64,000 nucleotides of DNA, taken from NCBI RefSeq assembly GCF_019175385.1, contig NC_083344.1, forward strand, positions 56,544,782 to 56,608,781. The letters are read 5' to 3'. A model generated the notes under the pieces. The model made no database searches, was not told the DNA's origin, and was given only the letters and a program-made list of their open reading frames with translations. This document shows positions 8,412 through 60,222 of this stretch, one piece after another. Source of the DNA: Lycium barbarum. Its lineage: Eukaryota; Streptophyta; Magnoliopsida; Solanales; Solanaceae. The position numbers and the translations under genes were made by a program. Numbering within the stretch: the first letter of the stretch is position 1; every line of letters starts with the position of its first letter.

Positions 8412-8423
8412 TGGTATCAGAGC
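8412..8423 (+). other. Primer-binding site, initiator tRNA-Met
   Basis: TGGTATCAGAGC, complementary to the 3' end of plant initiator tRNA-Met, four bases after the LTR. Confidence 0.95.
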
Positions 8424-8474
8424 AGTTCATCCTCGGAGTGTCTACAGACTGTGTCTAGTAGAGTCTTGTTTATC

Positions 8475-8494
8475 GGTGTGTTGTGCACCACATC
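8475..8494 (+). promoter_or_regulatory. Dimer-initiation-like leader hairpin (loop TTGTGCAC)
   Basis: Stem GGTGTG/CACATC (one G.T pair) closes an eight-base loop containing the self-complementary hexamer GTGCAC (8483-8488). It lies 51 nt after the primer-binding site. The role is inferred from form and position. Confidence 0.6.
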
Positions 8495-8611
8495 TATAAA
8501 CAGAAAGCTACAGGACATTTAGGATGTCACTTTTCCTTCTTACTCTAGAAGGTGCGATAGAGCTATGTTATCAGGATAATCCCTCTCTAACGAATTATTG
8601 TGTTTTTAGCT

Positions 8612-11453: not shown

Positions 11454-12272
11454 TGTATTTAGAATTTTCTTAGCTTTCACTGGAAGTGAAGTAAAACTAT
11501 GAAAATGATGATCACCTACAAAATCAAAAGCATAGTTAGTTAAAAAATCAGCCAGGCCATTTCCTTCTCTCAGAACATGCTCCACCCTCACTTCCTTATC
11601 CCTCCTCAACCTTGAGATATCATTTATGATCATTGATATACTCCATGGAGTCTCCCACTGACCAGTTAAGATCATCTTCATAGTCATTGAGTCTGTTTCC
11701 AACACCACTGGCAACAGACTGTGTGTAACACAGTACTTAAGACCCTCATGTAGTGCCCTTGCTTCTGCTATCAAATTTGAACCATCTGATATCCTTCTTC
11801 CTGCTGCATACTGGAAATCACCTACTGCATTTCTAATACAAAAGGCCACAGAACTTGGTCTAGGATTTCCCCTAGAAGCTCCATCAGAATTACATTTATA
11901 CCATCCTGGCATAGGAAAATCCCATTTGACTATCTTGCTTACAATTCTTGGCCTGTATGCTTCAAAGATTTGTAGAATTTGAGGTATGCATATTGGTAGG
12001 TTGTTCTGCCCTGGAAACCTCATTCTACACATTTGATATATGATCATGTTTATCTCATAAATCACTTTGTTGATGTACATCCTCCCTCTATGTAGGATTG
12101 TATTCCTCCACTTCCATATCTGCCACATGGTGACCATTGGAATAGCTTTAAAGATGGTTCTGAACTTTGAGGGACAATCTGCATTCCACCAGACTTGAAG
12201 AAGCTGCCTGACTTGTTGAAACTGTGCTGTGATGCCAACATTTCTTGTAACAAACAAAAGATCCACAGTTTC
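11454..12272 (-). pseudogene. LINE ORF2 C-terminus: end of zf-RVT region plus RNase H
   Basis: Open from the TSD junction to a stop at 11451. It continues the zf-RVT region (VWWNADCPSKFRTIFK, MWQIWKWRNTILH) and ends in a type I RNase H domain. That domain shows CNSDGASRGNPRPS with the first Asp, AEARALHEGLKYC with the Glu, LETDSMTMK with the second Asp, and REGNGLADFL with the last Asp. All four acidic residues are present. A C-terminal RNase H is typical of one group of plant L1 elements. The N-terminal part of this ORF lies at 48005-50342, beyond element A; across the 5-base target duplication the two halves are in frame. Confidence 0.85.
12268..12272. other. Target-site duplication of element A, left copy (gtttc)
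   Basis: Identical to 48000-48004, the bases flanking the far end of element A. This perfect match shows that A spans 12273-47999 and landed in the LINE. Confidence 0.95.
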
Positions 12273-12578
12273 TGTCACGACCCGTCTAGAGGGCCGCGAC
12301 GAGCACTTGGTACTAGCCCACCCGGGCACCCCTTAACTTACACTTATACTTACATCTAGGTGAGCCATAAAATTAAACATATAAATCTATTCATTCATCA
12401 TACTAGTCCCATTGGACGACAATGCCTTTATATCATAATTGGCATCTATGTCACATCAACGTACATGAGCCGACGAGGCTATCAAAATGATATACAAAAT
12501 ATAGGCCGACAAGGCCAGACATATCTAACCACATACACGTGGCTATGAGCCTCTAAGAAGGGTATAACATATCACATG

Positions 12579-12776
12579 AGCGGGACAGGACCCCGCTATG
12601 CCCATAATTATATACACAAAAGAATAAGTACCCAAAAGCTATGGCTCCGAATGAAATGGAGCCCTGGTATGTAATCTCTGAGAAAGCAGCTATGGATCAA
12701 GCCTGTCTCCCTGGGCACCTGCGGGCATGACGCATCGTCCACAAACAAAAGGACGTCAGTACGAAGAATGTACTAA
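12579..12776 (-). promoter_or_regulatory. Structured LTR block: heptaloop 12579-12597, triple hairpin 12719-12776
   Basis: Heptaloop hairpin AGCGGG/CCCGCT around GTCCTGT. Hairpin 2 is CGTCC/GGACG instead of CCCCC/GGGGG. Hairpin 1 has one T.G pair. Hairpin 3 is TGCG/CGCA. Confidence 0.7.
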
Positions 12777-13848
12777 GTATGGAAAGCATGATCAATATCA
12801 ACATAGAAGCATAAATAACAACATAAGAAATAGCATAGGATGGGAGATGGCAATATCGTCGTCATATGCACTTACTTGCCTTTCATAGGAACTTTCCATT
12901 TCTAATACGTATTTGTGTACATACATCATTATCCGTATTCCATAATAGTACCCATATCATATTTGTGCTCGTATTCGTATACATGCCCTTATTCACATTC
13001 ATATACATAGTCATATCATATTCGTATTCATATCATATACATAATCATTTACATAGCATACCCGACCACGTAGGATCGGTGTTTCATACATACTTTGCCA
13101 ACCAAGGCTCAAGGTTGCTCATACCTGGCCCTACCATGGCTTCAGGGTTACATCTACCTGGCCCTACCAAGGTGTCAGGGTTATCCGTACCCTCTGCAGA
13201 GGTGTGCGCGCGTTTCGTAATCGTATACATACTTATTTACATATCATACCCGGCCTCATAAGCTCGGGGTTCCATAAGAGTCATACATAGATACATATAC
13301 ATACTAGCTCATAAGCATCATCACTATTAACATCATTATCATCATTATCGTCATCGATATCATTATCACTATTATCCTCATTCGTCACATCTATCTTTAT
13401 TGGCTTACTCGTTGGACGAGGAACTAGTACGATGTAGCGGATCAAGAATCGTGAGCTTACTAGCTCGGAAGATCAAATCACTTGAAAGACATCATAGACT
13501 TATGGAAGATTTTGACATTTGGCCAAAGAACTATGCCTTATGAAAGAAGCGTTAGCCTTACATACCTTTCCGTTCAACTATTTACCACTTGCGCTTTCTC
13601 CTCCAATGCTAGCGTTTCTACCTTCATTAAAGTCATACTATCGTTAGAATCGACAACTAGCACACATGGATAAAGCTAGAGAAAATCGGACAGCATCTCC
13701 TCCATAACGTATCTCAACTCCCAAACTTCAATAATAAATTCACGATGCCATAACAATAGCCACTACTCATTCACATTATCCAGATTTCTCTCATTCACAT
13801 TATCCAATTTTTCTAAACTTAAAAATTTGATTTGAAGTGCACAGTGGT

Positions 13849-14111
13849 CGTAAACTTGGTTTACGGTCCGTATTCCAGTTTACGGACCGTCCTTCATGGT
13901 CGTATTTAATCATACCAGAACCATAAACTGAAACTGAGATGTGGTGATTTACGGACACAGTTTACGGGCCGTAAACCACTTTACGGTCCGTATTTCGGGT
14001 CGTATTTAACCATTTGCTGATTTGGCAGAAAGTTGAAGTTTTGGAAGCCAAAATATGACATGGCAGTTTACGGACCGTACACCACTTTACGGTCCGTATT
14101 TCACTTTACGA
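13849..14111 (-). repeat. Cluster of TACGGNCCGTA palindromes in A 3' LTR
   Basis: At least six copies of TTTACGG(T/A/G)CCGTA-like sequence in about 260 bp, 210-475 bp from the LTR's sense start, i.e. in the presumed U3 region. Confidence 0.8.
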
Positions 14112-14324
14112 CCAACTGGCCAGAATGCAAACCTGCAACTTTTCATATTTCCAAAACCTATAATTATTCATTACGAAGCATAACCTATCTCTTATTGCAA
14201 TTGCCTTCGGAATCTTACTTAGGTCGTCAAATGTTTTCTCTTACTCATGAAAACATCGGATACTCGTACTCTTCGCGGGTCCATTCACTTGGACAACAAT
14301 GGAGGATTTTTCCGAGGTGTAACA

Positions 14325-20294: not shown

Positions 20295-21107
20295 GTCAGG
20301 AGAAAACTCAAAATCTTAGCGTCCAGCCAAAGCATAAACACGGTGCTGAGGACCGCTGGAACTGGGAACTCTCCCTCTGCCTCTACCATGGCCAACTGGT
20401 GCATGTGAACCTGGCCCCGTAGGGCGTACAGATGCTGAAGATCCGGCTACCGACCCTGAAGGCTAGGTCCTACCTCTACCATGAACTGAGGGGAAATCAC
20501 GCATGCTATGGCCTGGTCGACCAAATGAATAGCAACCATCTGAACCTGATCGGCATTGAGCCCAATGTAACTTCCCACACTGGGAACATCATGCCACGGG
20601 TGGCCTCGCCTGACCCGAATCACCTTTAAACTGGGACCCTGAAAAACTCAGACTCGGCCCGGAACGATCAGATCTATCAAATCTCTGGCCTGAAAACCGT
20701 GGAGGTGCACTGGTCATAGAATAGCCTGAATGTCTGGGGAACTGCTGCCTGTTCCCACCTCTAAACTCGCTCATCGGACCCAAAGATATAGCCCTCTTGC
20801 CATGTCCCCTATCTTACTCGCTTTCACTTCTCTGCTGTTGCAAGCTTTCTTTTAAGTTCGTAGCATGGGCCTGAATGCGCGCAATGTCCGCAGTCAGGCA
20901 TCTATCCATCAAGTGTGGCCCTAGGCCTTTCACAAATCGGTGTTTTCGGTCACCCATGTCCGCTACCATGGCCGAAGCATACCTAGCCAAGGAATTGAAA
21001 CGGAAACTATACTCTAGAGCACTCATACTACCTTGCCTCAAATTTAAGAATTTATCGGCTCTAGCTCGCCGAACTCCCGGAGGCATATAGTGTCGGAGAA
21101 AAGCATC
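20295..21107 (-). pseudogene. gag: Element A gag, C-terminal two thirds, broken
   Basis: Enters at DAFLRHYMPPGVRRARA near 21107 and runs through NLRQGSMSALEYSFRFNSL and GLGPHLMDRC to about 20814. It then continues with stops and shifts through a Gly/Arg/Ser-rich region. The CCHC knuckle near 20520-20600 is eroded (CYSFGRPGH with the second Cys replaced). The N-terminal part lies at 33868-34241; between them sits the B array, and about 180 bp of A gag are missing. An apparent 172-codon frame at 20814-21332 is a chimera of this gag with antisense B gag. Confidence 0.8.
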
Positions 21108-21109
21108 AA

Positions 21110-22453
21110 GAAGAAGAAGAATCTCATAATGAGGCTCCCCCCCAGACTGTTCCTGCTCCCCCTGCACCGGCAGAGCAGGGAAGAGCTCCAGCTCCAGCCC
21201 CCGCACCTCCAGTTCCACCGCCAGCAGTTCCGGGCCAACAGATGGCCGAGGCCATTCAATTACTGACCCAGTTAATTGCCGCACAGGCTCAGCGGCAAGA
21301 TGTAGACCTAGGAGACAGGGCGGTAAGTGCAAGGGCCCGCGACTTTATCACCCTGAAGCCTCCAGAGTTTTATGGATCCAGACCAGAGGAGGACCCGCAG
21401 AGTTTTATAGATGAGATGCTGAGGACTCTAAGGATCATACATGCTTCGGATACGGAGTCCGTAGATTTGGCTTCATACAGGCTGCGGGATGTGGCAGTTT
21501 TGTGGTATAGTAGTTGGATATCCTCGAGGGGAGCGAATGCACCTCCCCCGGTTTGGCAGGAGTTTACCGAGGCATTTCTGCGACATTTCTTACCGCCAGA
21601 GGTTCGACGAGCACGAGCCGAGATGCTCTTGAACCTTAAGCAAGGAAATATGAGTGTTCGGGAGTACGACCTTCGTTTCAACTCACTAGCCAGGTATGCC
21701 CCAGCCCTGATAGCAGATAGGGGAGATCATGTGCACCGATATGTGAGTGGGCTAGGGCCACATTTGGTTAAGGAATGCTTGACGGCTTCACTCCAGGACG
21801 GGATGACTATTACCCGCATCCAGGCCCACGCCCAAAATCTGGAAGAACAGTACCAGTCACGGAAAGGGGAGCGTTATCCAGATAGGGGTCCCAGAAAAAG
21901 GGGCAGATCTTCTGAGGCTAGAAGCGAGTATAGAGGGGGGCAGGAACAAGAGCATTCTAGGTATTCAGGCCAATCAGTGGCCAGTGCACCACCTCGATTT
22001 GCGGATAGAAGATTTGACCGCTCCGCCTATTCGGGATCGGATCAGGGTACTAGAGCTTCAGGATCCAAGTACAGAGCTGATTTTAGCGGGACGGGGCTTC
22101 CCCCGCCACGATGTGCTCGGTGTGGCACGCCACACTCTGGGCAGTGCTACCTAGACACCGGTGGTTGTTTTGGCTGTGGTCGAACTGACCATTTTGTACG
22201 TGATTGCCCACTAAAGGATGAAGGAGGCCGAACTCAGCCAGCCGGATCAGCAATCGGTTCATCGTCGACCGTGCGCCCTCGTGGACAGACTTCCCAGGCT
22301 CCAGCGGGCCGCGGCCGAGGTAGAGGAGGGGCACCTATTTCAGCTGGTCCTCCGCACCGCCTATATGCACTGACAGGACGACAGGACCCTGAACCATCCG
22401 TAGACGCGGCCACAGGTACTTTTTCAGTATTTTCTATGTTAACCGTGTGTTAA
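21110..22453 (+). CDS. gag: Element B gag, copy 1 (open, start codons lost)
   Basis: Open without a stop for 448 codons; the first in-frame Met is at 21242, giving 403 residues, but the native start (MPPKRKATMAEK, seen at 26664) was removed by the chimeric junction. Pro/Ala-rich N-terminus, then capsid-like retrotransposon gag domain (residues about 30-200: FITLKPPEFYGSRPEED, VWQEFTEAFLRHFLPPE, GLGPHLVKECL). A basic Ser/Arg linker follows, with one CCHC knuckle (C309, C312, H317, C322) and a Gly/Arg-rich tail. It stops at TAA after FSMLTVC with no protease or RT beyond. Gag-only elements (TR-GAG) are known in plants and depend on pol supplied in trans. It was presumably expressed from the LTR; this copy has no adjacent upstream promoter. 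Confidence 0.85.
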   Translation, partial: EEEESHNEAPPQTVPAPPAPAEQGRAPAPAPAPPVPPPAVPGQQMAEAIQLLTQLIAAQAQRQDVDLGDRAVSARARDFITLKPPEFYGSRPEEDPQSFIDEMLRTLRIIHASDTESVDLASYRLRDVAVLWYSSWISSRGANAPPPVWQEFTEAFLRHFLPPEVRRARAEMLLNLKQGNMSVREYDLRFNSLARYAPALIADRGDHVHRYVSGLGPHLVKECLTASLQDGMTITRIQAHAQNLEEQYQSRKGERYPDRGPRKRGRSSEARSEYRGGQEQEHSRYSGQSVASAPPRFADRRFDRSAYSGSDQGTRASGSKYRADFSGTGLPPPRCARCGTPHSGQCYLDTGGCFGCGRTDHFVRDCPLKDEGGRTQPAGSAIGSSSTVRPRGQTSQAPAGRGRGRGGAPISAGPPHRLYALTGRQDPEPSVDAATGTFSVFSMLTVC

Positions 22454-22689
22454 CCAATTCGAATTTTATTTTACTCTATACTGTCCTCTGTATTACTGAA
22501 CATATTAAGAGTTTGGAAATTTGGACGAAAAGTGGCTATACGCATAGGTAAAAGGCGGATACTGGAGATTACGGAGGTTAGAACTGTAAATAAAAGAAAA
22601 GACGTGTTACGCGGACGTTTCGAAACCTTCTAAGACCCCAACGCGTCCCATATTATGCGACATAAGTAGTACGGGGAAGCGGAGGTAGA

Positions 22690-22785
22690 AGTACTAACAC
22701 CGAGACACTGAAATGCATTAAAGTTTCAAGGTTAAGCGTGCTCAGGTGGGAGTAATTCCACGATGGGTGACCCCCTGGGAAATAT
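22690..22785 (+). other. 5S-rRNA-like segment in element B, copy 1
   Basis: Contains GGTTAAGCGTGCT (5S box A region) and GATGGGTGACCCCCTGGGAA (box C region) in the order and spacing of plant 5S rRNA; the upstream part has diverged. It is derived sequence, not an intact gene. The comparison is to plant 5S as I know it, not computed. Confidence 0.75.
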
Positions 22786-23211
22786 ACTGAAAATTTCATA
22801 AATGCGGAAACAAGAGACGAGTGTAGAATTAGGCAGCCCAGAGTAAATTGGGGTGTGGAAAGCGGTTAGAAACCCCACACGAGTCATATAGGCCGAGACA
22901 GACTAAACTAACTAAAAAAGGGGAAGGCATGGCAACAGAAAGTTTTGAGGATGAAGGAAAAGGGTACAGATGTCACATGGTGAGACCGATATTGAGTCCA
23001 CACTAGCTAAAGCAAGCAATCCCTGATATGACGATATACGGGAACATGTCTAGTGAGGGGATAGACGCAGAGGACGCCACGAAGAAGGAATTTCAACCGT
23101 AAAGATCGTAAAAAGGGTAACCTAAGCTTCTAAGATGAATATGCTAAGCGACATGAGGTATTTACAAAGGAGACCTCCCCGAAATATTATACTATGCTAT
23201 GAGGCAAGTTT

Positions 23212-23247
23212 AACATTCGAGGACGAATGTTCTAAAGGGGGGGAGGA
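23212..23247 (+). other. ACATTCG hairpin and polypurine tract, B copy 1
   Basis: AACATTCG-AGGA-CGAATGTT followed by AAAGGGGGGGAGGA directly before the LTR start TGTTATATCCC. Confidence 0.85.
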
Positions 23248-26200
23248 TGTTATATCCCGCATTTTATGCAATCGAATAATTCAAGACAATCGCGGGAAAA
23301 CAACAAGCAAGGCAATATTTTATTTTGTTTGGCACATGAGTTGCTTATGAAAAGTCTAGAAGTGGAAATATGGAGAACGACGAAGGGCAAATTTGGAAGT
23401 TGGAAATTTTTTTCATAAATTACAAGAATTTGCCAAGAATACAAAGTGGGCTAGAACTATTTTTTTAAGCAAAAGAGAGGCCCAACCGGCCATGTTGATG
23501 GGTTTGGCCCATGATTCATTAATTCATGGTATTAAATAAGATGACCAAGTCATCTTTATCCCATAAGTGCTCTAGAAGATTCAAGAAATTGAAGAACAAA
23601 AGAAGGGAACAAAGCTTAAGGCCATTCGACCATAGTGAAAAATCCAAGAAAAAAATTGCAAAATTCTTCCAAAAATTATTTTCCACTAAGTGAAGGGTGC
23701 ATAACAAGGTGAAGTTGTTGTTGGAGCAAGAAGGATTCATAATCATTCAAGTTGTCAACTTGTAGTCAAGTGAGAAGTTGAAGAAGAAAGGTGAATTCTA
23801 ATCTTGTTTTATGTGTTATACATGGTTTATATGTGTTGTAATTTGCTAAAATAGATGAAATTCATGAAGGAGAGGAATATAGTAATTGGCCGTGCATATA
23901 TGTATATGTGTAGGCATCATATTTCAATTATTTTGTCTGGTGTTTGGTTGTTGTTGTTGTGAATACTATATTGATAATGGAAGTTGAATGATTTTGGAAA
24001 GATTGTAGTTGTGTATGTATGAGGTTGGCCGTGTAGTGTGTAGTGTGCATATGGTTGTGTGTGTGTTGCTTGATGAATGGATAGTGAGCAAGTTTTATCT
24101 ATTATCTTAGTTGTTGTGTTGTGGATTTTATATCGCAAATCAAGAATTTATAAACATGGTGAAGTATTAGTAGATGGAAGTTTGTGTAAATTGAAAATAA
24201 GTTTCTTGTATGGAAGACATGTAATGGTATTACTATGATGTTGTTGGAATATATGTATTATAAGGTTATTGTTGTTTCATTGGAATTGGAGAGTCTTGAA
24301 GGAAGTAGAAGGCTAATTGAAGTGTTGGAATGTACCTTGAATTGAATATGTGAATTTCTAGTGTGATTGTTGAATTATGTTAATAGTTTGGCCGGGTTTG
24401 AATTCCCGGATTGTGATTGATGAGAATTTGGTTGTGATGAATGTTGAGGATGGTATATTTACAGAGGAAGTGCTGCCGAAATTTCGGTAGCCAAGTGTTT
24501 CCTTAAGATTCTAACTCTAAGTATCCTAATAAGAGTTTTGGTAAACATGACCAAATTTCAGATTTTGACGAGATTGCAACGTGAATTTGGAGTAGCAAAA
24601 GGAGCGGAAAGAGGTATGTAAGGCTTCACCCTTCTTTCTATGGCATGTCTTAGTTGTAATAAGTTGGGTACGAGCCTCGGGGACAACCCGGTTCCCCGGA
24701 ATCCGCACCTAAAGTTTTCCACTTTTTGTTCAATAGAATTGAACTAGAAAGTGTGCCAATTGTTGGAAAAACCTCCTACACCCTTAGAACTTGTATAAAT
24801 GGGACCCGATTACCCTGAGACCCTCACAAGTAATGCTATGACACGTAACATACGTAAATCGTATACGCTACCTCATCCGGCCCGAGGTGGGCCCGTTACT
24901 CTCGGATTTTCCTATAGTCGTGGTTGACTTACTTGAAGTAAATCCAAAGGGGACTTTTGATCCCAATCTCGTTACCGAATGATAAGTACTATGACTGCTC
25001 TAACGAGAATGTTTTTATGAGGATAATGATAATTACAATGTTAGACAAGAGAATGTACCTTTGATAAGTACGACCGGAACGACGGTATGACTAAGATGAC
25101 TAAGCTAAGTATCTTATGTAAACATGAAAGTGATACACTAATTTTTGAATCGTATTTATATTTCCTAGTTATATCTTTATTTTCTCCGCCTCTAAAGCCT
25201 ATGACGGTCATCTATGATGCCCACGATTTCATTCTACGGTACTGTAATACTATTCTCCGTTTATAGTCTCGCCTTAAAATACTTGTTCCTTCAAGGTGAG
25301 ATAAAGCTATCAGTAGCATCCCACAACGTAATCGGAGGTCACCGACCTTACGTCACTCCGATGGATACATGATTTTCCTTGGCTCTTGTGTGCTTATATG
25401 ATATATGTATATAAAATAGGTATATGTGTATGGATATCTATATAGAAATAAGATAAGTAATTGTATATGAGACGTGTATATGTATAAAAGATAAGCAAAT
25501 GTATATGTATATGTGTATGGGGAAAGGGGAAGGGTCACTGTTATATCACCACCTGATTCAGCTGGATTCCATCCTGGACGCGGGATGCCCGGACGCGGGA
25601 TATGGGAGAGCCGTACGCGGCGTCTGTATATATATATAATGTATGCTACCTATATATGATGTAATGTGTTTGGACACCATTGGGGAGGGGGCTTGGGTGA
25701 GCCGATTGTATTCGGCGTCTGTAAATGTCAATAAAAGATACCGTTACTGAAATGTACTATTTTCTGTGCACGAGAATAAGTAATATATAAATGTTAATTC
25801 CTATGCTTATGAAAAGAAGCGTTTCAAAGACGAAAGGACAAGCCTACATGACAGCCGGCCTAAAAAGGGGCCTTCCTATGCACAGGTTACCTTCTCGCCT
25901 CGTTATATGCCCTGTGACTCCATGATATTATTAATCGTACTCTATGTCACTGCTTGTATTATTTTCTATGCCTTACATACTCGGTACACTATTCGTACTG
26001 ACGTCCCTTCTTGTGGACGCTGCGTTTCATGCCGCGCAGGTCAGCAGGCAGGTGGACTTGATCCTTAGGAGCTCTGCCAGCAGCACTCTACAGCGCTCCA
26101 GTCGTTCCGGAGCCTTATTTCAGTGGTACTATTTTGTGTATATATAATCTCGGGCACGATCGTACTCGGCCCTTTCTATGTATAAACGTACTATGTCTAG

Positions 26201-26450
26201 AGGCTCGTAGACAGATATGTACAGTCAGTTAAGTATAGTTAGGTATATGGTGTTTTGGCATGCTAATGTTGATGTATAAGTCATAACGAAGTTTATTAGT
26301 CTATGTTCAGAATGACGCCGCTAATGTTAATGTTAAAAAAAAAATGGCTCTGTTTACATGGCTTGCTAAGAGGTAAAGGTAAAACGATAGACAAGGGGTG
26401 CTCGGTACAAGTATCGGGTACTCGTCACGGCCCCTAGACGGGTCGTGACA
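23248..26450 (+). mobile_element. Element B LTR, complete copy (3203 bp)
   Basis: TGTTATATCCCGC to GACGGGTCGTGACA. Landmarks: GGAAGTGCTGCCG followed by palindrome CCGAAATTTCGG near 24465-24490, donor-like GAG|GTATGTAAGG at 24614, GC-rich repeats (GGACGCGGGAT) at 25570-25620, triple hairpin 25981-26039. Followed by leader and gag, so it acts as a 5' LTR for the gag piece to its right and a 3' LTR for copy 1. Confidence 0.9.
25981..26039 (+). promoter_or_regulatory. Triple hairpin of B LTR
   Basis: Hairpin 1 TCGGTAC/GTACTGA with a G.T pair, hairpin 2 CGTCC/GGACG, hairpin 3 CTGCG/CGCAG. The heptaloop hairpin is not preserved here; the homologous stretch near 26150-26175 does not pair. Confidence 0.7.
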
Positions 26451-26454
26451 GAAG

Positions 26455-26466
26455 TGGTATCAGAGC
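26455..26466 (+). other. Primer-binding site, initiator tRNA-Met (element B)
   Basis: TGGTATCAGAGC four bases after the LTR end. Confidence 0.95.
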
Positions 26467-26519
26467 AGTTCGGTCCTAGGGTTTGTCTGCGAGCCGTGTC
26501 CAGTAGAGTCTTGCTTATG

Positions 26520-26539
26520 GGTGTGTAGCGCGCCACACT
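26520..26539 (+). promoter_or_regulatory. Dimer-initiation-like leader hairpin (loop TAGCGCGC)
   Basis: Stem GGTGTG/CACACT (outer pair G.T); the loop contains self-complementary GCGCGC (26528-26533). It lies 53 nt after the primer-binding site. Confidence 0.6.
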
Positions 26540-26663
26540 TATAAACAGGAGGCTACAGGGCATTTAGGAAATGTGACCTTCTTTGCATTCTGAGATCGTG
26601 CGATAGAGCTAAGTTGCCAGGCTTCCGTATTCCTTTTCCTAAACCTATGTTATGGTTTCAGTA

Positions 26664-27134
26664 ATGCCGCCGAAGAGAAAGGCTACGATGGCCGAGAAAG
26701 CCAAGAGGGTGGCGGCCAGCAGAGTTGAACGGGAGCTTGAAGAAGAAGAATCTCATAATGAGGCTCCCCCCCAGACTGTTCCTGCTCCCCCTGCACCGGC
26801 AGAGCAGGGAAGAGCTCCAACTCCAGCCCCCGCACCCCCAGTTCCACCGCCAGCAGTTCCGGGCCAACAGATGGCCGAGGCCATTCAATTACTGACCCAG
26901 TTAATTGCCGCACAGGCTCAGCGGCAAGATGTAGACCTAGGAGACAGGGCGGTAAGTGCAAGGGCCCGCGACTTTATCACCCTGAAGCCTCCAGAGTTTT
27001 ATGGATCCAGACCAGAGGAGGACCCGCAGAGTTTTATAGATGAGATGCTGAGGACTCTAAGGATCATACATGCTTCGGATACGGAGTCCGTAGATTTGGC
27101 TTCATACAGGCTGCGGGATGTGGCAATTTTGTGG
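26664..27134 (+). pseudogene. gag: Element B gag N-terminus, cut at 27134
   Basis: Native start MPPKRKATMAEKAKR, then a Glu-rich and Pro/Ala-rich stretch and the beginning of the capsid-like domain up to LRDVAILW. There the sequence switches to antisense A gag at the tandem-duplication boundary. It overlaps in content with the first part of copy 1, so the missing 5' codons of the other copies can be recognised here. The reading frame stays open for 41 non-gag codons to 27257. Confidence 0.85.
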
Positions 27135-27509
27135 TCTGGGGAACTGCTGCCTGTTCCCACCTCTAAACTCGCTCATCGGACCCAAAGATATAGCCCTCTT
27201 GCCATGTCCCCTATCTTACTCGCTTTCACTTCTCTGCTGTTGCAAGCTTTCTTTTAAGTTCGTAGCATGGGCCTGAATGCGCGCAATGTCCGCAGTCAGG
27301 CATCTATCCATCAAGTGTGGCCCTAGGCCTTTCACAAATCGGTGTTTTCGGTCACCCATGTCCGCTACCATGGCCGAAGCATACCTATCCAAGGAATTGA
27401 AACGGAAACTATACTCTAGAGCACTCATACTACCTTGCCTCAAATTTAAGAATTTATCGGCTCTAGCTCGCCGAACTCCCGGAGGCATATAGTGTCGGAG
27501 AAAAGCATC
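27135..27509 (-). pseudogene. gag: Duplicated element A gag fragment, copy 2
   Basis: Same segment as 20733-21107, offset 6402 bp, with few differences (for example TATCC for TAGCC near 27388). It marks the tandem-duplication boundary at its left and the chimeric A/B junction at its right. Confidence 0.85.
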
Positions 27510-27511
27510 AA

Positions 27512-28855
27512 GAAGAAGAAGAATCTCATAATGAGGCTCCCCCCAGACTGTTCCTGCTCCCCCATGCACCGGCAGAGCAGGGAAGAGCTCCAGCTCCAGC
27601 CCCCGCACCTCCAGTTCCACCGCCAGCAGTTCCGGGCCAACAGATGGCCGAGGCCATTCAATTACTGACCCAGTTAATTGCCGCACAGGCTCAGCGGCAA
27701 GATGTAGACCTAGGAGACAGGGCGGTAAGTGCAAGGGCCCGCGACTTTATCACCCTGAAGCCTCCAGAGTTTTATGGATCCAGACCAGAGGAGGACCCGC
27801 AGAGTTTTATAGATGAGATGCTGAGGACTCTAAGGATCATACATGCTTCGGATACGGAGTCCGTAGATTTGGCTTCATACAGGCTGCGGGATGTGGCAGT
27901 TTTGTGGTATAGTAGTTGGATATCCTCGAGGGGAGCGAATGCACCTCCCCCGGTTTGGCAGGAGTTTACCGAGGCATTTCTGCGACATTTCTTACCGCCA
28001 GAGGTTCGACGAGCACGGGCCGAGATGCTCTTGAACCTTAAGCAAGGAAATATGAGTGTTCGGGAGTACGACCTTCGTTTCAACTCACTAGCCAGGTATG
28101 CCCCAGCCCTGATAGCAGATAGGGGAGATCATGTGCACCGATATGTGAGTGGGCTAGGGCCACATTTGGTTAAGGAATGCTTGACGGCTTCACTCCAGGA
28201 CGGGATGACTATTACCCGCATCCAGGCCCACGCCCAAAATCTGGAAGAACAGTACCAGTCACGGAAAGGGGAGCGTTATCCAGATAGGGGTCCCAAAAAA
28301 AGGGGCAGATCTTCTGGGGCTAGAAACGAGTATAGAGAGGGGCAGGCACAAGAGCAGTCTAGGTATTCCGGCCAATCAGTGGCCAGTGCACCACCTCGAT
28401 TTGCAGATAGAAGATTTGACCGCTCCGCCTATTCGGGATCGGATCAGGGTACTAGAGCTTCAGGATCCAAGTACAGAGCTGATTTTAGCGGGACGGGGCT
28501 TGCCCCGCCACGATGTGCTCGGTGTGGCACGCCACACTCTGGGCAGTGCTACCTAGACACCGGTGGTTGTTTTGCCTGTGGTCGAACTGACCATTTTGTA
28601 CGTGATTGCCCACTAAAGGATGAAGGAGGCCGAACTCAGCCAGCCGGATCAGCAATCGATTCATCGTCAACCGTGCGCCCTCATGGACAGACTTCCCAGG
28701 CTCCAGCGGGCCGCGGCCGAGGTAGAGGAGGGGCACCTAGTTCAGCTGGTCCTCCGCACCGCCTATATGCACTGACAGGACGACAGGACCCTGAACCTTC
28801 CGCAGACGCGGCCACATGTACTTTTTCAGTATTTTCTATGATAACCGTGTGTTAA
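27512..28855 (+). CDS. gag: Element B gag, copy 2 (open, start codons lost)
   Basis: The 403-residue frame from Met 27644 to TAA 28855 is collinear with copy 1 and also free of stops. It differs at scattered residues (for example GARNEYREGQAQEQ for EARSEYRGGQEQEH, and knuckle CFAC for CFGC; the CCHC pattern is kept). Upstream, a shift in a C run near 27540-27570 puts the Pro/Ala-rich N-terminus out of frame relative to copy 1. No pol follows. The same chimeric junction removes the native start. Confidence 0.85.
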   Translation, partial: EEEESHNEAPPRLFLLPHAPAEQGRAPAPAPAPPVPPPAVPGQQMAEAIQLLTQLIAAQAQRQDVDLGDRAVSARARDFITLKPPEFYGSRPEEDPQSFIDEMLRTLRIIHASDTESVDLASYRLRDVAVLWYSSWISSRGANAPPPVWQEFTEAFLRHFLPPEVRRARAEMLLNLKQGNMSVREYDLRFNSLARYAPALIADRGDHVHRYVSGLGPHLVKECLTASLQDGMTITRIQAHAQNLEEQYQSRKGERYPDRGPKKRGRSSGARNEYREGQAQEQSRYSGQSVASAPPRFADRRFDRSAYSGSDQGTRASGSKYRADFSGTGLAPPRCARCGTPHSGQCYLDTGGCFACGRTDHFVRDCPLKDEGGRTQPAGSAIDSSSTVRPHGQTSQAPAGRGRGRGGAPSSAGPPHRLYALTGRQDPEPSADAATCTFSVFSMITVC

Positions 28856-29648
28856 CCAATTCGGATTTTATTTTACTCTATACTGTCCTTTGTATTACTG
28901 AACATATTAAGAGTTTGGAAATTTGGACGAACGGTGGCTATACGCATAGGTAAAAGGCGGATACTGGAGATTACGGAGGTTAGAACTGTAAATAAAAGAA
29001 AAGACGTGTTACGCAGACGTTTCGAAACCTGCTAAGACCCCAACGCGTCCCATATTATGCGACATAAGTAGTACGGGGAAGCGGAGTTAGAAGTACTAAC
29101 ACCGAGACACTGAAATGCATTAAAGTTTCAAGGTTAGCGTGCTCAGGTGGGAGTAATTCCACGATGGGTGACCCCCTGGGAAATATACTGAAAATTTCAT
29201 AAATGCGAAAACAAGAGACGAGTGTAGAATTAGGCAGCCCAGAGTAAATTGGGGTGTGGAAAGCGGTTAGAAACCCCACACAAGTCATATAGGCCGAGAC
29301 AGACTAAACTAACCGAAAAAGGGGAAGGCATGGCAACAGAAAGTTTTGAGGATGAAGGAAAAGGGTACAGATGTCACATGGTGAGACCGATATTGAGTCC
29401 ACACTAGCTAAAGCAAGCAATCCCTGATATGACGATATACGGGAACATGTCTAGTGAGGGGATAGACGCAGAGGACGCCACGAAGAAGGAATTTCAACCG
29501 TAAAGATCGTAAAAAGGGTAACCTAAGCTTCTAAGATGAATATGCTAAGCGACATGAGGTATTTACAAAGGAGACCACCCCGAAATATTATACTATGCTA
29601 TGAGGCAAGTTTAACATTCGAGGACGAATGTTCTAAAGGGGGGGAGGA
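28856..29648 (+). other. Element B non-coding tail, copy 2
   Basis: Same as 22454-23247 with scattered changes and one deleted base in the 5S-like box (GGTTAGCG for GGTTAAGCG). It ends with the ACATTCG hairpin (29613-29632) and polypurine tract. Confidence 0.75.
29092..29186 (+). other. 5S-rRNA-like segment in element B, copy 2
   Basis: As in copy 1; box A has lost one A, box C (GATGGGTGACCCCCTGGGAA) is unchanged. Confidence 0.7.
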
Positions 29649-32354: not shown

Positions 32355-33221
32355 TGCCTAAATGTCTGGGGAACTGCTGCCTGTTCCCACCTCTAAACTC
32401 GCTCATCGGACCCAAAGATATAGCCCTCTTGCCATGTCCCCTATCTTACTCGCTTTCACTTCTCTACTGTTGCAAGCTTTCTTTTAAGTTCGTAGCATGG
32501 GCCTGAATGCGCGCAATGTCCGCAGTCAGGCATCTATCCATCAAGTGTGGCCCTAGGCCTTTCACAAATCGGTTTTTTCGGTCACCCATGTCCGCTACCA
32601 TGGCCGAAGCATACCTAGCCAAGGAATTGAAACGGAAACTATACTCTAGAGCACTCATACTACCTTGCCTCAAATTTAAGAATTTATCGGCTCTAGCTCG
32701 CCGAACTCCCGGAGGCATATAGTGTCGGAGAAAAGCATCAAGAAGAAGAAGAATCTCATAATGAGGCTCCCCCCCCAGACTTTTCCTGCTCCCCCTGCAC
32801 CGGCAGAGCAGGGAAGAGCTCCAGCTCCAGCCCCCGCACCTCCAGTTCCACCGCCAGCAGTTCCGGGCCAACAGATGGCCGAGGCCATTCAATTACTGAC
32901 CCAGTTAATTGCCGCACAGGCTCAGCGGCAAGATGTAGACCTAGGAGACAGGGCGGTAAGTGCAAGGGCCCGCGACTTTATCACCCTGAAGCTTCCAGAG
33001 TTTTATGGATCCAGACCAGAGGAGGACCCGCAGAGTTTTATAGATGAGATGCTGAGGACTCTAAGGATCATACATGCTTCGGATACGGAGTCCGTAGATT
33101 TGGCTTCATACAGGCTGCGAGATGTGGCAGTTTTGTGGTATAGTAGTTGGATATCCTCGAGGGGAGCGAATGCACCTCCCCCGGTTTGGCAGGAGTTTAC
33201 CGAGGCATTTCTGCGACATTT
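32355..33221 (+). pseudogene. gag: Third chimeric copy: A gag fragment (32355-32739) plus B gag piece (32742-33221)
   Basis: Starts slightly further out in A than copy 2 (GCCTAAATG precedes TCTGGGG), so its left breakpoint differs. B gag is open from 32722 to about 33225 (EAFLRHFL) and then jumps into the LTR at a shared CTTA, a four-base microhomology. Remaining gag and tail are deleted. Confidence 0.8.
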
Positions 33222-34241: not shown

Positions 34242-34363
34242 TTCTGAAATACACAACACACGGTTAAGGAACAAGAATTTCTTATATCATAGCTCTATCG
34301 CACGATTCTTATGAAGAAAGAAGGTCAATCATTCCTAAAAATTTCCGCAGTTTCTCATTTATA

Positions 34364-34383
34364 AGTGTGGCGCGCAACACACC
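34364..34383 (-). promoter_or_regulatory. Dimer-initiation-like leader hairpin of element A (loop TTGCGCGC)
   Basis: In sense GGTGTG/CACACT with self-complementary GCGCGC in the loop, 53 nt after the primer-binding site. Confidence 0.6.
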
Positions 34384-34436
34384 CATAACCAAGACTCTAC
34401 TAGACACGGCTCGTAGACACACCCTAGGACTAAATT

Positions 34437-34448
34437 GCTCTGATACCA
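34437..34448 (-). other. Primer-binding site of element A
   Basis: Reverse complement of TGGTATCAGAGC, four bases inside the 5' LTR boundary at 34453. Confidence 0.9.
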
Positions 34449-34452
34449 CGTT

Positions 34453-38406: not shown

Positions 38407-38442
38407 TTCTCCCCCCCTTAAGAACATTCGTCCCCGAATGTT
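38407..38442 (-). other. Polypurine tract and hairpin of element C
   Basis: In sense AACATTCG-GGGA-CGAATGTT, then TTAAGGGGGGGAGAA beside the LTR. Confidence 0.85.
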
Positions 38443-38539
38443 AAATAAATCTTATGAAGACTCACAAGCATAACGGGAAAACCATTTTATATATAACACA
38501 CATGGCCCATCCGTTTATTGGTACAACAAATACACAAGT

Positions 38540-40234
38540 TTAGATTACATGAGGCGTAGGGAATAAATGGGGGAATCTCTTCTTCATCTCATCCTCCGCC
38601 TCCCAAGTCATCTCTTCCCGGTTGTTATTGCGCCACAGAACCTTGACAGAAGGCACCTCCTTAGTGCGCAATCTCCTCACCTGACGATCCAGAATAGATA
38701 CAAGATGCTCGTCATAAGACAACTGCTCTGTCACCTGCAGATCATCTAATGGGAATATCCTGGAAGGGTCACCAATACACTTCCGCAACATCGACACATG
38801 AAATACCGGGTGCACGGACTCCAAATCGGATGGCAAGTCTAGCTCGTAGGCAACTGCGCCTATCCTCCGAACAATCTGGTATGGCCCGATGTACCGCGGA
38901 CTCAACTTGCCCTTCTTGGCAAACCTCATAACGCCCTTCATGGGCGACACCTTCAGGAATACCCAGTCACCAATCTGGAACTCTAACGGTCGACGCCAGC
39001 TATCAGCATAAGCTTTCTGTCGACTCTGAGCAGCTACCAGTCGTTCCCGAATAAGCTTCACCTTATCTACAGCTTCCTGGATCACATCCGGCCCAATCAA
39101 CTTAGTCTCGCCCACGTTAAACCAGCCAATAGGAGACCTGCATCTCCTGCCATAAAGGGCCTCGTACGGGGCCATCTGAATGCTGGAGTGATAACTGTTA
39201 TTGTAAGAAAACTCTATAAGCGGCAAATGATCATCCCAGCTGCCCCTGAAATCAATAACGCAGGCCCGCAACATATCCTCGAGCGTCTGAATAGTACGCT
39301 CGGCCTGCCCGTCGGTCTGAGGATGAAAGGCTGTACTGAGGCTCACCTGAGTCCCTAATCCCTCCTGAAATGACCTCCAGAAATTAGCTGTAAACTGGGC
39401 ACCTCGGTCAGTAATGATAGATACAGGGACTCCGTGAAGTCTGACTATCTCTCTGATATATAGTCTGGCATAATCCTCAGCCGAATAAGTAGTCCGGTCC
39501 GGAAGGAAATGGGCTGATTTCGTCAGCCTGTCCACAATAACCCAAATAGAGTCATACCTGCGTAGAGTACGCGGCAACCCAACAATGAAGTCCATATTAA
39601 TCATCTCCCATTTCCAGGCTGGAATCTCCATCTCCTGTAACAATCCACCGGGCTTCTGGTGCTCGATCTTGACTTGCTGGCAGTTCGGGCACTGACTAAC
39701 AAACTCAGCAACGTCTTTCTTCATGCCGTCCCACCAATACAAACACCTGAGGTCCCGATACATTTTAGTGGAACCAGGATGAACAGAATACCGGGCATAG
39801 TGTGCCTCGCCCATAATCTGCCGCCGTAAGCCCGCAACGTCCGGTACACAGAACCTGTCGTCGTACAATAATACTCCTTCAGGCGAGATTTCAAACTGAG
39901 TCTTTGATTTATTAAGGGCCACATCTCTGTACTGAATCAAAAGAGGATCCTCAAACTGGCGCTGCTTTACCTCCTGAATAATAGATGACTCAGCAACCGG
40001 ACGAACAGAAATCCCAGAATCTCCAGAATCCGCCAAACGAACTCCTAGGCTGGCCAGCTGACGAATGTCATGAACCAAATCTTTCTTACCCGACGGTACA
40101 TCAGCCAAGCTGGCCATAGACTTGCGGCTAAGTGCATCCGCTACCACATTGGCCTTCCCTGGATGGTACAGAATATCGACGTCATAATCCTTTAGTAGCT
40201 GAAGCCATCTCCGCTGCCGCAAATTTAGTTCCTT
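38540..40234 (-). pseudogene. pol: Element C pol, end of RNase H, integrase and chromodomain
   Basis: Open for 560 codons from Met 40222. It begins with the last RNase H motif (NVVADALSRKS, Asp at residue 29). The integrase finger has H141, H148, C178, C181. The catalytic triad is D211 (NMDFIVG), D272 (TDRGAQF) and E308 (DGQAERT), with exactly 35 residues between the last two. A GPY/F-like region (LSPRYIGPYQIV) and a C-terminal chromodomain-like module (ILDRQVRRLRTKEV ... TWEAEDEMKKRFPHLF) follow. No stop inside. It is in frame with the ORF upstream and separated only by TAG at 40235-40237, so the protein as encoded is split. Confidence 0.9.
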
Positions 40235-43200
40235 CTACTTAAAGATATACTGGAGACTCTTATGGTCCGTATAGACATCAACGTGGACCCCATATAAATA
40301 ATGCCGCCAAATCTTCAAAGCATGAATCACCGCGGCCAACTCAAGATCATGAGTGGGATAGTTCCTCTCGTGCGGTCTGAGCTGCCGGGAAGCATAGGCT
40401 ATGACTCGACCGTGCTGCATCAATACACATCCTATCCCAATACCAGAGGCGTCGCAATATACAACATACCCATCAGATCCCTCTGGAAGAGCCAAAACTG
40501 GTGTTGTAATCAATCTCTCCTTCAGCATCTGAAAGCTGCGCTCGCAGGCACCTGACCACTGGAATTTCGCTGCTTTCTGGGTAAGCCTCGTCAGTGGTGC
40601 TGCAATAGAAGAGAAATCCTCCACGAACCTGCGATAATACCCAGCCAATCCCAGAAAACTACGCACCTCTGTCGGTGTAGTAGGCCTGGGCCAATTCTGC
40701 ACAGCCTCAATCTTCTGCGTATCGACCCGAATACCGTCTGCGCCGACAATATGGCCCAAGAATGCCACAGAAGTGAACCAGAACTCACACTTAGAAAATT
40801 TATCATATAACTTCTGCTGACGGAGAATGCCAAGTATCGTCCTCAAGTGATCTGAATGCTCCTCGGCTGATCGCGAATAAATCAGGATGTCATCAATAAA
40901 CACAATAACAAACATATCCAGAAAAGGCCGAAATACTCGGTTCATCAGATCCATAAATACTGCTGGGGCATTAGTCAGCCCGAAAGACATAACTCTGAAC
41001 TCATAATGCCCGTACCGGGTCCTGAAAGCAGTCTTCGGGATATCTGCCTCCCGTACTCGCACCTGATGATAACCTGAGCGCAGATCTATCTTTGAAAAAT
41101 GTCTAGCACCCTGCAGCTGATCAAACAAATCATCAATCCGGGGGAGGGGATACTTGTTCTTAATAGTCACCTTATTCAGTTGCCGGTAGTCGATACATAT
41201 CCGCAATGACCCATCTTTCTTCCTGACAAACAATACCGGCGCTCCCCAGGGTGATGTGCTGGGTCTAATAAAGCCCTTATCCAACAAATCTTTCAGCTGC
41301 TCTTTCAACTCCTTCAACTCAGCTGGTGCCATCCTGTACGGAGGAATAGATATAGGCTGCGTATCCGGCATCAACTCTATAGTGAAATCAATCTCCCGCT
41401 CAGGCGGAAGGCCAGGAAGCTCGTCAGGAAAAACATCTGGAAACTCACTGACGACCGGAACAGACTGAAGGGTAGGTATCTCCGCTGCCGTATCGTGCAC
41501 ACGAACCAAATGATAGATATAACCCTTCTGGATCATCTTCTTAGCCTTGAGGTATGAAATAAACTTACCCCTCGGCGATGCAGTAGACCCGAACCACTCT
41601 ATAACTGGTTCCCCTGGAAACTGAAAACGGACTACCTTTTTCTGGCAGTCGACATTGGTATAACAGGAAGACAACCAGTCCATGCCCATAATGACGTCAA
41701 ACTCAAGCATATCTAACTCTATCAGATCAGCCTTAGTGCTACGATCATAAATGGTCACAGAACAATCTCTATAGATCTGTCTTACTATAACAAAATCCCC
41801 AACTGGCGTAGCTACCTCAAATGGCTCTATAGGCTCAGACACTATTCCAATTTTACTAGCAACAAGCGGGGAGATATATGATAAAGTAGAGCCAGGGTCA
41901 ATCAATGCATATACAGATCTGGAGAAAACCAGCAATGTACCTGTGATGACGTTTGGCGAAGCCTCCTGATCCTGGCGGCTGGCCAAAGCATATATGCGGT
42001 TCGAGGGACCGCTAGAACCTGAAGCGCCACCGCGGCCTCGACCGCGTCCTGCCGGTGCTGAAATACCTCGCCCTCCAAGGCGTGCAACTGATGGAGCAGA
42101 AGAAGAACCGGCGGCTGACCCTGTCTGCTGAGCAGCACTACCAGAACCGCTAGCCAAAGGACAGTCTCTCATAAAGTGGCCCTGACCACCACACGAAAAG
42201 CAAGCTCCAGTCGCTCGGTAACACTCCCCGGGATGAGACTTCCCGCAATGAGGACAACGGGGTCTGGGTGGTCTGGCCTGGCTGGGACCCCTGGGTACCT
42301 GTGAACCTGCCACTCTGGAGCTCTGACCGGCCCCAGACGGTCCTGTACTATCGAATCTCCGGCTGCCTGACTGAGTAATCCGGCCGGACGAAGGAAAATG
42401 CCTATCCGACTGCTGCTGCAGAGGCTGTCTGCCTCGAGAATCTCCAGAATAACCTGCGGACCTAGCCCTCTTGGGCGGCCTCCTATCTCGATCTCTGCCA
42501 GCAGGATCAGACCTGCGACGGTCCTCCATACCCATCGCATAGGCCTGAAGTCGGGCAATGTCCATGTCTGCCTGCAATGACACTGCCATACAGCTATCAA
42601 CCAAATACCGGTCCAATCCCATAACATATCTGTGCATCCGATCGGACATATCTGCTACCACGGCCGGTGCATATCGGGCCAGAGAATCAAACTCAAGGTT
42701 ATACTCGCGAACACTCCGACCCCTCTGCTGCAGACGTAAGAATCGATCATCCCGTGCCCGCCGTAACTCTGGGGGCAAAAAGTGGCGGGTGAATGCTGTC
42801 ACAAACTGATCCCAAGTGGCCGGAGGGGCACCCTCTCCTCTAGACAGCTCCCAAGTCTCGTACCAGTGGGTAGCCACATCTCGAAGCCTGTGCGAAGCCA
42901 GCTCAACCGACTCGGTCTCTGAAGCCCTGACCAGGTCCAGTGAGCGTCGCATGCCCCGAATAAAGTCATGGGGGTCCTCATCGGGCTTAGACCCGAAGAA
43001 CTCTGGAGGGACACATAACAAAAACTCCCGAACTCTCAGGCTGTCCCGCCTGTCATCGTCATCATCATCCCTCCGCCCGCGTCTGCGAGCCTGTCCTGCC
43101 ACCAATGTTGTCAACAACTGTACAACCTCTCTCAAGGTCCTATCGTCCGCCCGTGGCTGAGGAGCTGGAGTCTCGGGTGCGGGTACACGGACCTCTGGAG

Positions 43201-43372
43201 CTGCTGAAGGTCCTGCTCCAGGCTGTACTAGTGGGGGTGTAGCAGACCCCTCGGAATGCGGCACATCCTCAGGCAAATCATAAACACGAGCCCGGGTAGC
43301 TCGCTATGCCTGGCTAGTCTCTCCCATCCTCGCTTTGCCCTTCTGGGCCACCGTTGCCTTCTTCGGAGGCAT
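40235..43372 (-). pseudogene. gag-pol: Element C gag, protease, reverse transcriptase, RNase H core
   Basis: The likely native start is Met 43372 (MPPKKATVAQKGKAR); TAG at 43304-43306 interrupts after 22 codons. The long frame from Met 43276 has 1012 residues: gag domain about 80-250, knuckle C358-C361-H366-C371, protease 440-540, RT about 640-810 with FIDD at 792-795, RNase H D941, E978, D1003. The protease motif reads D-P-G-S-T instead of D-T-G-S-T (residues 459-463), which should impair it. The frame ends at TAG 40235-40237 inside [11 protein letters not shown], where element A has Gln, i.e. CAG to TAG. Confidence 0.9.
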
Positions 43373-43488
43373 CACTGCAAACACAAAGGCGAGTCAGATC
43401 AAAATCATCCTAATAGCACAGCTCTATCGCACGATCTAAGATTCCAAAGAAAGTAACATCCTAAATGCCCTGTAGCTTCCTGTTTATA

Positions 43489-43508
43489 GATGTGGTGCAC
43501 AACACATC
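43489..43508 (-). promoter_or_regulatory. Dimer-initiation-like leader hairpin of element C (loop TTGTGCAC)
   Basis: In sense GATGTG/CACATC, six Watson-Crick pairs; loop with self-complementary GTGCAC; 53 nt after the primer-binding site. Confidence 0.65.
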
Positions 43509-43561
43509 GATAAACAAGACTCTACGAGACACGGCCTGTAGACATTCCGAGGACAAACCTG

Positions 43562-43573
43562 GCTCTGATACCA
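43562..43573 (-). other. Primer-binding site of element C
   Basis: Reverse complement of TGGTATCAGAGC, four bases from the 5' LTR. Confidence 0.95.
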
Positions 43574-43577
43574 CTTT

Positions 43578-59105: not shown

Positions 59106-59509
59106 GTACACCTAGATGAGTAGAAGCCAATATGAAAGATGTTCCACCGGCGTTGGCAAGCTCCACTTGCTCTTGGAGTGCTGCCGAGTCAGAGTATATG
59201 TGTTATGATTTCTAATTAATGTTAGAGACTTTGCAGACAGAGTCGTGGGTATTGGAAGTCAGTCTGTAAGCGGCTCCATCAGCCGGTGTGTCATTTTGTG
59301 TTATGTTATAATGTCCATGTGGTTACAGATTTTATTTGATTAAAGAAAGATGAAAAGAATATTCTGAAAGCATTTACTATGAATTTCATTTGCATTTGAT
59401 TTAAGAGTCCAAAGAGATTATATGTGTAATAAGTGTCTGCGGGTTCGCTCGGCCTTAAATAACGGTCGGGTGCCCATCATACCCTGATCAAGATTAGGGT
59501 GTGACAAAG

Positions 59510-59521
59510 TGGTATCAGAGC
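59510..59521 (+). other. Primer-binding site of element D
   Basis: TGGTATCAGAGC three bases after the LTR. Confidence 0.95.
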
Positions 59522-59574
59522 AGGTTTGTCCTCGGGGTTGTCTGCAAAGTCGTGTCCAGTAGAGTCCTGTTTAT

Positions 59575-59594
59575 GGTGTGAACCCGGCCACATT
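59575..59594 (+). promoter_or_regulatory. Dimer-initiation-like leader hairpin of element D (loop AACCCGGC)
   Basis: Stem GGTGTG/CACATT (two G.T pairs), 53 nt after the primer-binding site. The loop keeps only a CCGG self-complementary core, so this copy is the weakest of the five. Confidence 0.45.
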
Positions 59595-60222
59595 TATAAA
59601 CTGGAGGCTGCAGGGCATCTAGGGATTGTTGACCTTCTTTCTGTCTCAGATCGTGTGATAGAGCCAAGTCATAGGTAATGAGATTCCTTATATGTAAGCC
59701 TTACATACGACGGAAGAAGTTGAGCGATGATATGGAAGGTCATAAAGGTAAGTTGTAACATATTTGTTTTGTTACCTGAAATTGGGAGCCCTTGGTGGCT
59801 AGAATATGTCGTACACAAATATATGCCCTGTGAGGCATTGTTGGTATTTGTTGTTTGCAGATTCTGAATAGTAAGAATGGTAAAGAAGATTCTGTTAGAA
59901 TTTTTCTAAATCAGGCTATTTAGTTAGGTACATCTAACAGGAAAGAAGCGTGGAAAGTAAATATTGTAAATGGACTATAAGTGGGGTGAGTTGTTTCAGA
60001 AAGGTTATGGATTTGGCAGGGCGATGAAGGCGCGATCACTACCATCGGGAATCTAGGAATCTGGGACGATGGTAGTTATACACGAAAGTGAAAGGTGAAT
60101 ATTGAGGATTGAAAAAGGGTAAAATAGTAATTGTAAAGGAAAGGACGTGTTACGAGGAGGTCTCGGAATCTGTAAGACTTCGACTTGCTCCAGATCATGT
60201 AATAAAGGTCATGCGAGGAAGT

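Follow-up and report, generated by a model that had tools for sequence, protein, structure and literature searches.

Why should five Ty3/gypsy leaders in one 64,000-nt window of the Lycium barbarum genome (the whole stretch of DNA analysed here), one of them attached to a non-coding element, all present the same small hairpin? The answer that very probably holds, judging from sequence comparisons, is that this leader hairpin is a dimer-initiation site, acting by loop-loop pairing of two RNAs. The stem-loops of the original prediction are present in all five leaders (E, B, A, C and D), with the coordinates, strands and loops given there; in each, the upper stem begins 51-53 nt 3' of an exact TGGTATCAGAGC primer-binding site, which presumably fits initiator tRNA-Met, and four of the five loops (E, C, A and B) contain a self-complementary hexamer, D being the exception, as had been claimed. 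The rods and primer-binding sites lie as follows:

8451..8518, plus strand: full rod of element E, upper stem-loop at 8475-8494, palindromic loop TTGTGCAC
26496..26563, plus strand: full rod of element B, upper stem-loop at 26520-26539, loop TAGCGCGC
34340..34407, minus strand: full rod of element A, upper stem-loop at 34364-34383, loop TTGCGCGC
43465..43532, minus strand: full rod of element C, upper stem-loop at 43489-43508, loop TTGTGCAC
59552..59618, plus strand: full rod of element D (non-coding), upper stem-loop at 59575-59594, loop AACCCGGC
8412..8423, plus strand: primer-binding site of E, exact TGGTATCAGAGC
26455..26466, plus strand: primer-binding site of B, exact TGGTATCAGAGC
34437..34448, minus strand: primer-binding site of A, exact TGGTATCAGAGC
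43562..43573, minus strand: primer-binding site of C, exact TGGTATCAGAGC
59510..59521, plus strand: primer-binding site of D, exact TGGTATCAGAGC

The 6-bp stem GRTGTG/CACAYY, originally described as the whole hairpin, is present but is merely the tip of a conserved rod of ~68 nt, which appears when the alignment of the five leaders is folded. The rod of element C consists of 6 + 4 + 10 + 6 bp with small internal loops between them, and most of the rod forms in each of the five leaders when folded singly. Fold z-scores are -3.06 (E), -3.04 (B), -0.53 (A), -4.83 (C) and -2.11 (D) for stretches of 87-91 nt, and -3.38, -3.21, -2.45, -4.81 and -2.88, in the same order, for the 42-nt tips; the long stretch of element A has no stability above that of its shuffles, 56 of 200 of which were equally good. 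The pattern GRTGTG-N8-CACAYY, with at most one mismatch, matches the window 14 times (most of these matches being both strands of one site), vs. a mean of 1.9 and a maximum of 6 after shuffling. The element C hairpin is upstream of the gag ATG, i.e., between the primer-binding site and the gag start, and the distance from the primer-binding site to the upper stem is 50-61 nt in 270 copies from the genome (51-53 nt in 236 of them).

What kind of element carries this rod? In element C (35481-46505, minus strand) the LTRs measure 2.9 kb and are 99.2% alike; it has two reading frames, assigned by domain search:

40235..43276, minus strand: gag-protease-RT-RNase H reading frame of element C
38540..40222, minus strand: integrase and chromodomain reading frame of element C

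The domains follow the Ty3/gypsy chromovirus order (gag, protease, RT, RNase H, integrase, chromodomain); the chromodomain scores 24.4 bits (Pfam cut-off 25.1) and the integrase core 26.6 (cut-off 32.6), the other domains being above their cut-offs. The lineage of the five elements is presumably Tekay/Del, with which the LTR length of element C agrees. Nested insertions are suggested at 34442-35477 and 46528-47999 (minus strand): judging by LTR matches at 12260-14324, element C apparently lies within the 5' LTR of A and element B within the interior of A; LINE-like reading frames (RVT_1 and zf-RVT) occupy 47960-50342 (minus strand) in two overlapping pieces. The B locus (20724-33869, plus strand) is made of 5.2-kb repeats (98.5%) with a period of ~6.4 kb, each with a 403-aa reading frame; gag domains were detected in the first of these frames, and the layout suggests copies of a gag-only element arrayed in tandem or through LTR recombination, not a simple LTR-internal-LTR structure.

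Element D is different: its interior has no reading frame above 95 aa. Among D and its 29 best matches (L099-L128), stop-free runs in the sense frames over 1.57 kb downstream do not exceed 89 residues in 29 of 30, and the remaining one has a run of 161; in 30 other copies (L009-L038), runs of at least 400 residues were found in 13. What does such an element keep? A comparison of 1.5 kb to either side of the primer-binding site shows one island that D has in common with all four other elements:

59497..59664, plus strand: leader island of D, also present in A, B, C and E at 75-83% identity and spanning about -13 to +155 relative to the primer-binding site

D also matches B, C and E over ~75-85 nt of LTR, with one more weak LTR match to E, and a wider comparison with B gave three short matches of 42-61 nt. 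Because the non-coding D keeps mainly the leader and a promoter-like block, the leader appears to be a cis-acting replication signal, and it is plausible, as originally proposed, that the non-autonomous B and D keep it for co-packaging. The LTR block of ~75-85 nt (59025-59110 in D, 400-600 nt before the primer-binding site elsewhere) is shared by most element pairs, no A-D match being listed in the pairwise comparison of the five elements; it is perhaps a promoter or transcription start region.

Is the palindromic loop a peculiarity of a few copies or a property of the family? All leader data come from the genome of the window (1.67 Gb), which contains 24,313 matches to a pattern that combines the primer-binding site with a downstream block and ignores the hairpin, and 28,988 to one that requires the complete upper stem but leaves the loop free; patterns read backward, used as controls, gave 0 matches in both cases. 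The 100 flank-only matches listed, which lie within the initial 24 Mb of contig 1 and were all read (30 were used as loci), contain 87 palindromic hexamers (48 GTGCAC, 39 GCGCGC) and 13 non-palindromic ones, and 83 of 100 listed matches to the stem-fixed, loop-free pattern are palindromic. A broken stem form, TATG...CACA, occurs in 569 genome copies; the 361 matches to an ATG...CAT pattern are an over-count that includes wrong-register hits. The set of leaders was extended with all 40 best matches to the D leader (30 as loci), with 8 of 40, 20 of 40, 20 of 40, 20 of 40, 17 of 40 and 20 of 40 rows from other listings, and with a further 20 loci and three single rows from the stem-fixed listings, chosen with their loops in sight (so chosen were ten GGCGCC loci, L219-L228 and L246-L248). 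Families beyond the first 100 copies were reached via chosen queries, and a query that includes a loop tends to bring up relatives whose loop is identical. Two copies of E and D (L001 and L099) and one locus in which the primer-binding site was not found (L264) were dropped.

The apical loop holds a palindromic hexamer in 221 of 270 copies, and it does so in a single register: loop positions 3-8 in 221 of 268 gap-free loops, with 0 and 5 in the other two registers. The two bases before the hexamer (loop positions 1-2) vary by subfamily majority, being TT, TA, AA, TC or AT. One recurrent loop, TTGTACAC (L033, L076 and others), has a broken hexamer at positions 3-8 and a shifted palindrome, TGTACA; another, non-palindromic AAGCCAGC, is common to two loci ~5 kb apart (L094 and L137), probably because a decayed copy was duplicated locally. 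An RT fragment matched 116 stretches of viral_contigs and found 0 relatives there (these sets may omit records near the genome of the window), and the leader pattern gave 0 matches in viral_contigs and 0 in genome_contigs (bacteria, archaea).

How, then, does the hexamer change? When the leaders were grouped without the loop columns (a tree built with downstream gag sequence mixed families and was left out of the results), loss of palindromy at the neutral rate, the outcome opposed to the original prediction, was not found: among 270 leaders, the majority loop is palindromic in each of the 20 subfamilies with n ≥ 3, while 37 of 39 private hexamer changes lose the palindrome. The majority hexamers of these 20 subfamilies are six, GTGCAC, GCGCGC, GCCGGC, GGCGCC, GTCGAC and GACGTC. 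The same holds for the 211 leaders of which none was chosen with its loop in sight (18 of 18 groups with n ≥ 3 are palindromic, and 34 of 36 private changes lost the palindrome), and looser clustering cuts gave palindromic majorities in 12 of 12 and 7 of 7 groups. The palindrome is kept by lineages that multiplied and lost by single copies. Six hexamers need at least five palindrome-keeping switches, and at the private rate of 2/39 the chance of these is ~3.5 in 10 million; parsimony places 9 hexamer switches on the weakly supported tree of the 270 leaders. For the first 18 subfamilies the minimum is 2 switches, and a placement null was all-palindromic in 0 of 2,000 cases for each of two root states.

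The loop of element D falls into the same scheme: AACCCGGC is a private variant of the family's loop AAGCCGGC, which is present in 31 of the 40 best matches to the D leader (D included), and its hexamer GCCGGC, a third palindrome, in 31 members of a 43-member subfamily. Judged by these relatives, D is a decayed copy and not a true exception to palindromy. The loop ACGCCGAC of L096 is likewise private, 12 of the 21 members of its subfamily reading AAGCCGGC. Searches with a fixed stem and a free loop yielded three more palindromes: (i) GGCGCC, in 18 of 21 family rows among the matches listed (counted by eye), from which all 10 fetched copies come; (ii) GTCGAC, with 3 copies chosen by their loop and then found in 17 of 19 relatives identified by similarity; and (iii) GACGTC, with 1 copy chosen by its loop and then found in 7 of 17 relatives, plus one AACGTT. 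In the GACGTC family the palindrome is therefore present in 9 of 18 copies (8 GACGTC, 1 AACGTT); two diverged single copies whose arms resemble this family (L219 and L220) have the non-palindromic loops GAGACCTC and ATGAGCTT.

If the hexamer serves pairing, its halves should change together, and the stem below should do the same. Against a null from our own script, which re-places the substitutions of each branch of (weakly supported) trees, loop pair 5-6 ranked 1 (E 0.01) and pair 4-7 ranked 3 (E 1.72) among 13,041 column pairs in the 270 leaders, 5-6 alone being below E 0.05; since the hypothesis named both pairs before the search, their per-pair chances are ~1e-6 (5-6) and 1.3e-4 (4-7). With 231 leaders no pair was below E 0.05, 5-6 being the best (E 0.07) and 4-7 having E 1.15; with 171 leaders and pairs at least 3 columns apart, which leaves 5-6 outside, none was below E 0.05 and 4-7 ranked 5th (E 5.8). 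In 29 representatives, hand-picked from 48 clusters such that the 19 omitted include most decayed copies of the GACGTC family, 96.6% of loop cells are paired vs. 69.0% after shuffling, a value reached by 0 of 500 shuffles, and pair 4-7 takes all four Watson-Crick forms (CG 13, UA 10, AU 5, GC 1). All 48 representatives, 34 of them palindromic, give 95.1% vs. 61.5%.

Nor is covariation absent from the stem, an outcome that would have spoken against the original prediction: in the 29 representatives both sides have changed in 9 of 26 pairs (reached by 3 of 500 shuffles), the covariation score is 0.285 vs. 0.201 shuffled (reached by 0 of 500), and 94.8% of cells are paired vs. 36-57% with a slid partner. 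Over the 20 subfamilies, 503 of 520 cells are paired (slid partners again 36-57%) and 7 of 26 pairs are doubly compensated; pair 69-82 is inflated, 20 loci having been chosen by a pattern that fixes it. Changed stem cells are still paired in 58 of 75 cases between subfamilies vs. 156 of 303 private ones (p 5e-5, the cells not being independent). Compensated stems include GATGTG/CACATC (element C), GATATG/CATATC and GGTACG/CGTACC. Loop positions 5 and 6 adjoin and 4 and 7 enclose only 2 bases, so neither pair is possible in cis; their complementarity is conserved all the same, and pairing between two RNAs is therefore the best explanation.

Six palindromic hexamers and covarying loop pairs thus support, as the best inference from sequence, the loop-loop dimerisation first proposed for the window. 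In the element RNA, the rod 3' of the primer-binding site would present an 8-nt loop ending in six self-complementary bases; two such RNAs would join loop to loop via the hexamer, forming a kissing complex that is probably then stabilised by Gag, and the RNA pair would be packaged and reverse-transcribed. Subfamilies would have moved among at least six self-complementary hexamers, each still able to pair with its own kind. That the pairing takes place in RNA, starts dimerisation and serves packaging is what we infer from these sequence patterns.

Could the palindromes have arisen without any selection for pairing? The switching between GCGCGC and GTGCAC noticed in the original prediction does occur but was discounted as strong evidence, as it equals the decay of two methylated CpGs: palindromes would then be by-products, one C-to-T change on each strand of methylated GCGCGC yielding GTGCAC. 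This change matches the expectation exactly, half of such double decays stay palindromic, and 1,641 genome loops have A/T at the first middle base, most of those listed being GCACGC, a single decay. By itself the GCGCGC-to-GTGCAC switch says little, since double CpG decay produces it, and the weight of the case falls on the other four hexamers: GCCGGC, GGCGCC, GTCGAC and GACGTC require other changes, several of them transversions. Moreover, hexamer classes are common to whole subfamilies, and private changes, with two exceptions in 39, break the palindrome; CpG decay as the source of the palindromes is largely refuted and very unlikely. A less improbable, though still unlikely, view is that other tasks (Gag binding, tRNA annealing, translation control or RNA export) account for the conservation of the leader, that the hairpin has a purely structural role and that the self-complementarity of the loop is incidental. 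Conservation between elements does extend beyond the hairpin to the whole leader island (about -15 to +155), and other leader functions probably coexist with dimerisation, but this view leaves unexplained the top-ranked complementarity of loop positions unable to pair in cis, and loop positions 1-2 differ among subfamilies while the complementarity of the hexamer persists.

Symmetric DNA sites suit dimeric proteins, and the palindrome might be a site for a dimeric host protein; such a protein, however, would need to accept six hexamers that share just the first G and the last C, no single protein with so broad a reading of palindromes is known to us, and the flanking stem covaries with G-U pairs, as in RNA, which makes this reading barely credible. 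Just as improbable is the view that self-pairing of the loop serves reverse transcription, by template switching or self-priming, in place of dimer initiation; a kissing hairpin reportedly promotes HIV-1 recombination, and sequence data do not separate this role from dimerisation.

How does dimer initiation by this hairpin compare with known signals? According to a review, GCGCGC, GUGCAC and GUGCGC prevail at the HIV-1 dimerization initiation site (PMC5874298). The present hairpin resembles HIV-1 SL1 in being a leader hairpin with a GC-rich self-complementary loop hexamer, and GCGCGC and GUGCAC recur here. In contrast to SL1, the 8-nt loop here has two variable bases 5' of the hexamer and no unpaired base 3' of it, the rod is longer, and six hexamers occur within one genome. 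Purines flanking the hexamer matter in SL1 (PMC516450); flanking unpaired purines of the HIV-1 type are not found here, and they are not general to all such sites. Rfam gave no match at the gathering score in the window and none at E ≤ 1 around leader C, and there is thus no sign of homology with SL1.

Among retrotransposons, the DS/PAL6 of the yeast Ty3/gypsy element Ty3 is described as a short hairpin tipped by a palindromic hexamer and is proposed to start a kissing-loop dimer (PMC11381356). The present loop is similar in placing a palindromic hexamer at a hairpin tip; unlike it, the Ty3 hexamer, CUGCAG (RNA 391-396), which also differs in sequence, is, judging by its order, among three palindromes assigned to the GAG frame and not to the leader (PMC11381356). 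In Ty1, loop-loop contacts at the 5' end of the RNA are proposed to start dimerisation and packaging (PMC5454406). There, two hairpins with complementary 7-nt motifs are used, unlike the one self-complementary loop seen here. Ty1 is a Copia-type element. Barley BARE2, a parasite of BARE1, is said to keep conserved dimerization and packaging signals (PMC3735527); this pair resembles the present case as a plant element and a parasite with such signals, and differs in being Copia-type. Among the papers listed by searches of an open-access library, none was seen to describe such a site for plant Ty3/gypsy elements, and the main text of a 2025 review of the plant LTR retrotransposon life cycle contains no word starting with "dimer" (PMC12786077).

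If each subfamily pairs with its own kind, does the hexamer also tell kin from non-kin? A compatibility code, with at least six dimer signals in the same genome that each match themselves but in many cases not one another, is a tentative idea that the evidence leaves on the doubtful side. GUCGAC pairs with itself at -7.5 kcal/mol and with GUGCAC and GCGCGC at -0.1 and -0.9; the values for GCCGGC are -11.7 with itself, -2.2 with GUGCAC and -2.8 with GCGCGC. Some cross-pairs are still strong (GUGCAC-GCGCGC -6.6, GCGCGC-GGCGCC -7.5 and GCCGGC-GGCGCC -6.0 kcal/mol), and not all classes are isolated. Both the L096 family and the non-coding family of D use GCCGGC; in the single L096 copy examined, a reading frame of ~60 residues stays open to the end of the stretch. 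If the code is real, it would decide which retrotransposon RNAs are co-packaged and able to recombine, and which helper a non-coding parasite can use.

Little work seems to have addressed the choice and pairing of RNAs by plant LTR retrotransposons. The leader hairpin would be a second use of the solution known from HIV-1, apparently an independent one, since no homology is detectable. It offers an exact hairpin, natural swaps of the palindrome and broken variants among tens of thousands of copies, and so opens loop-loop pairing, the way non-coding parasites are packaged and the barriers to recombination to direct tests.
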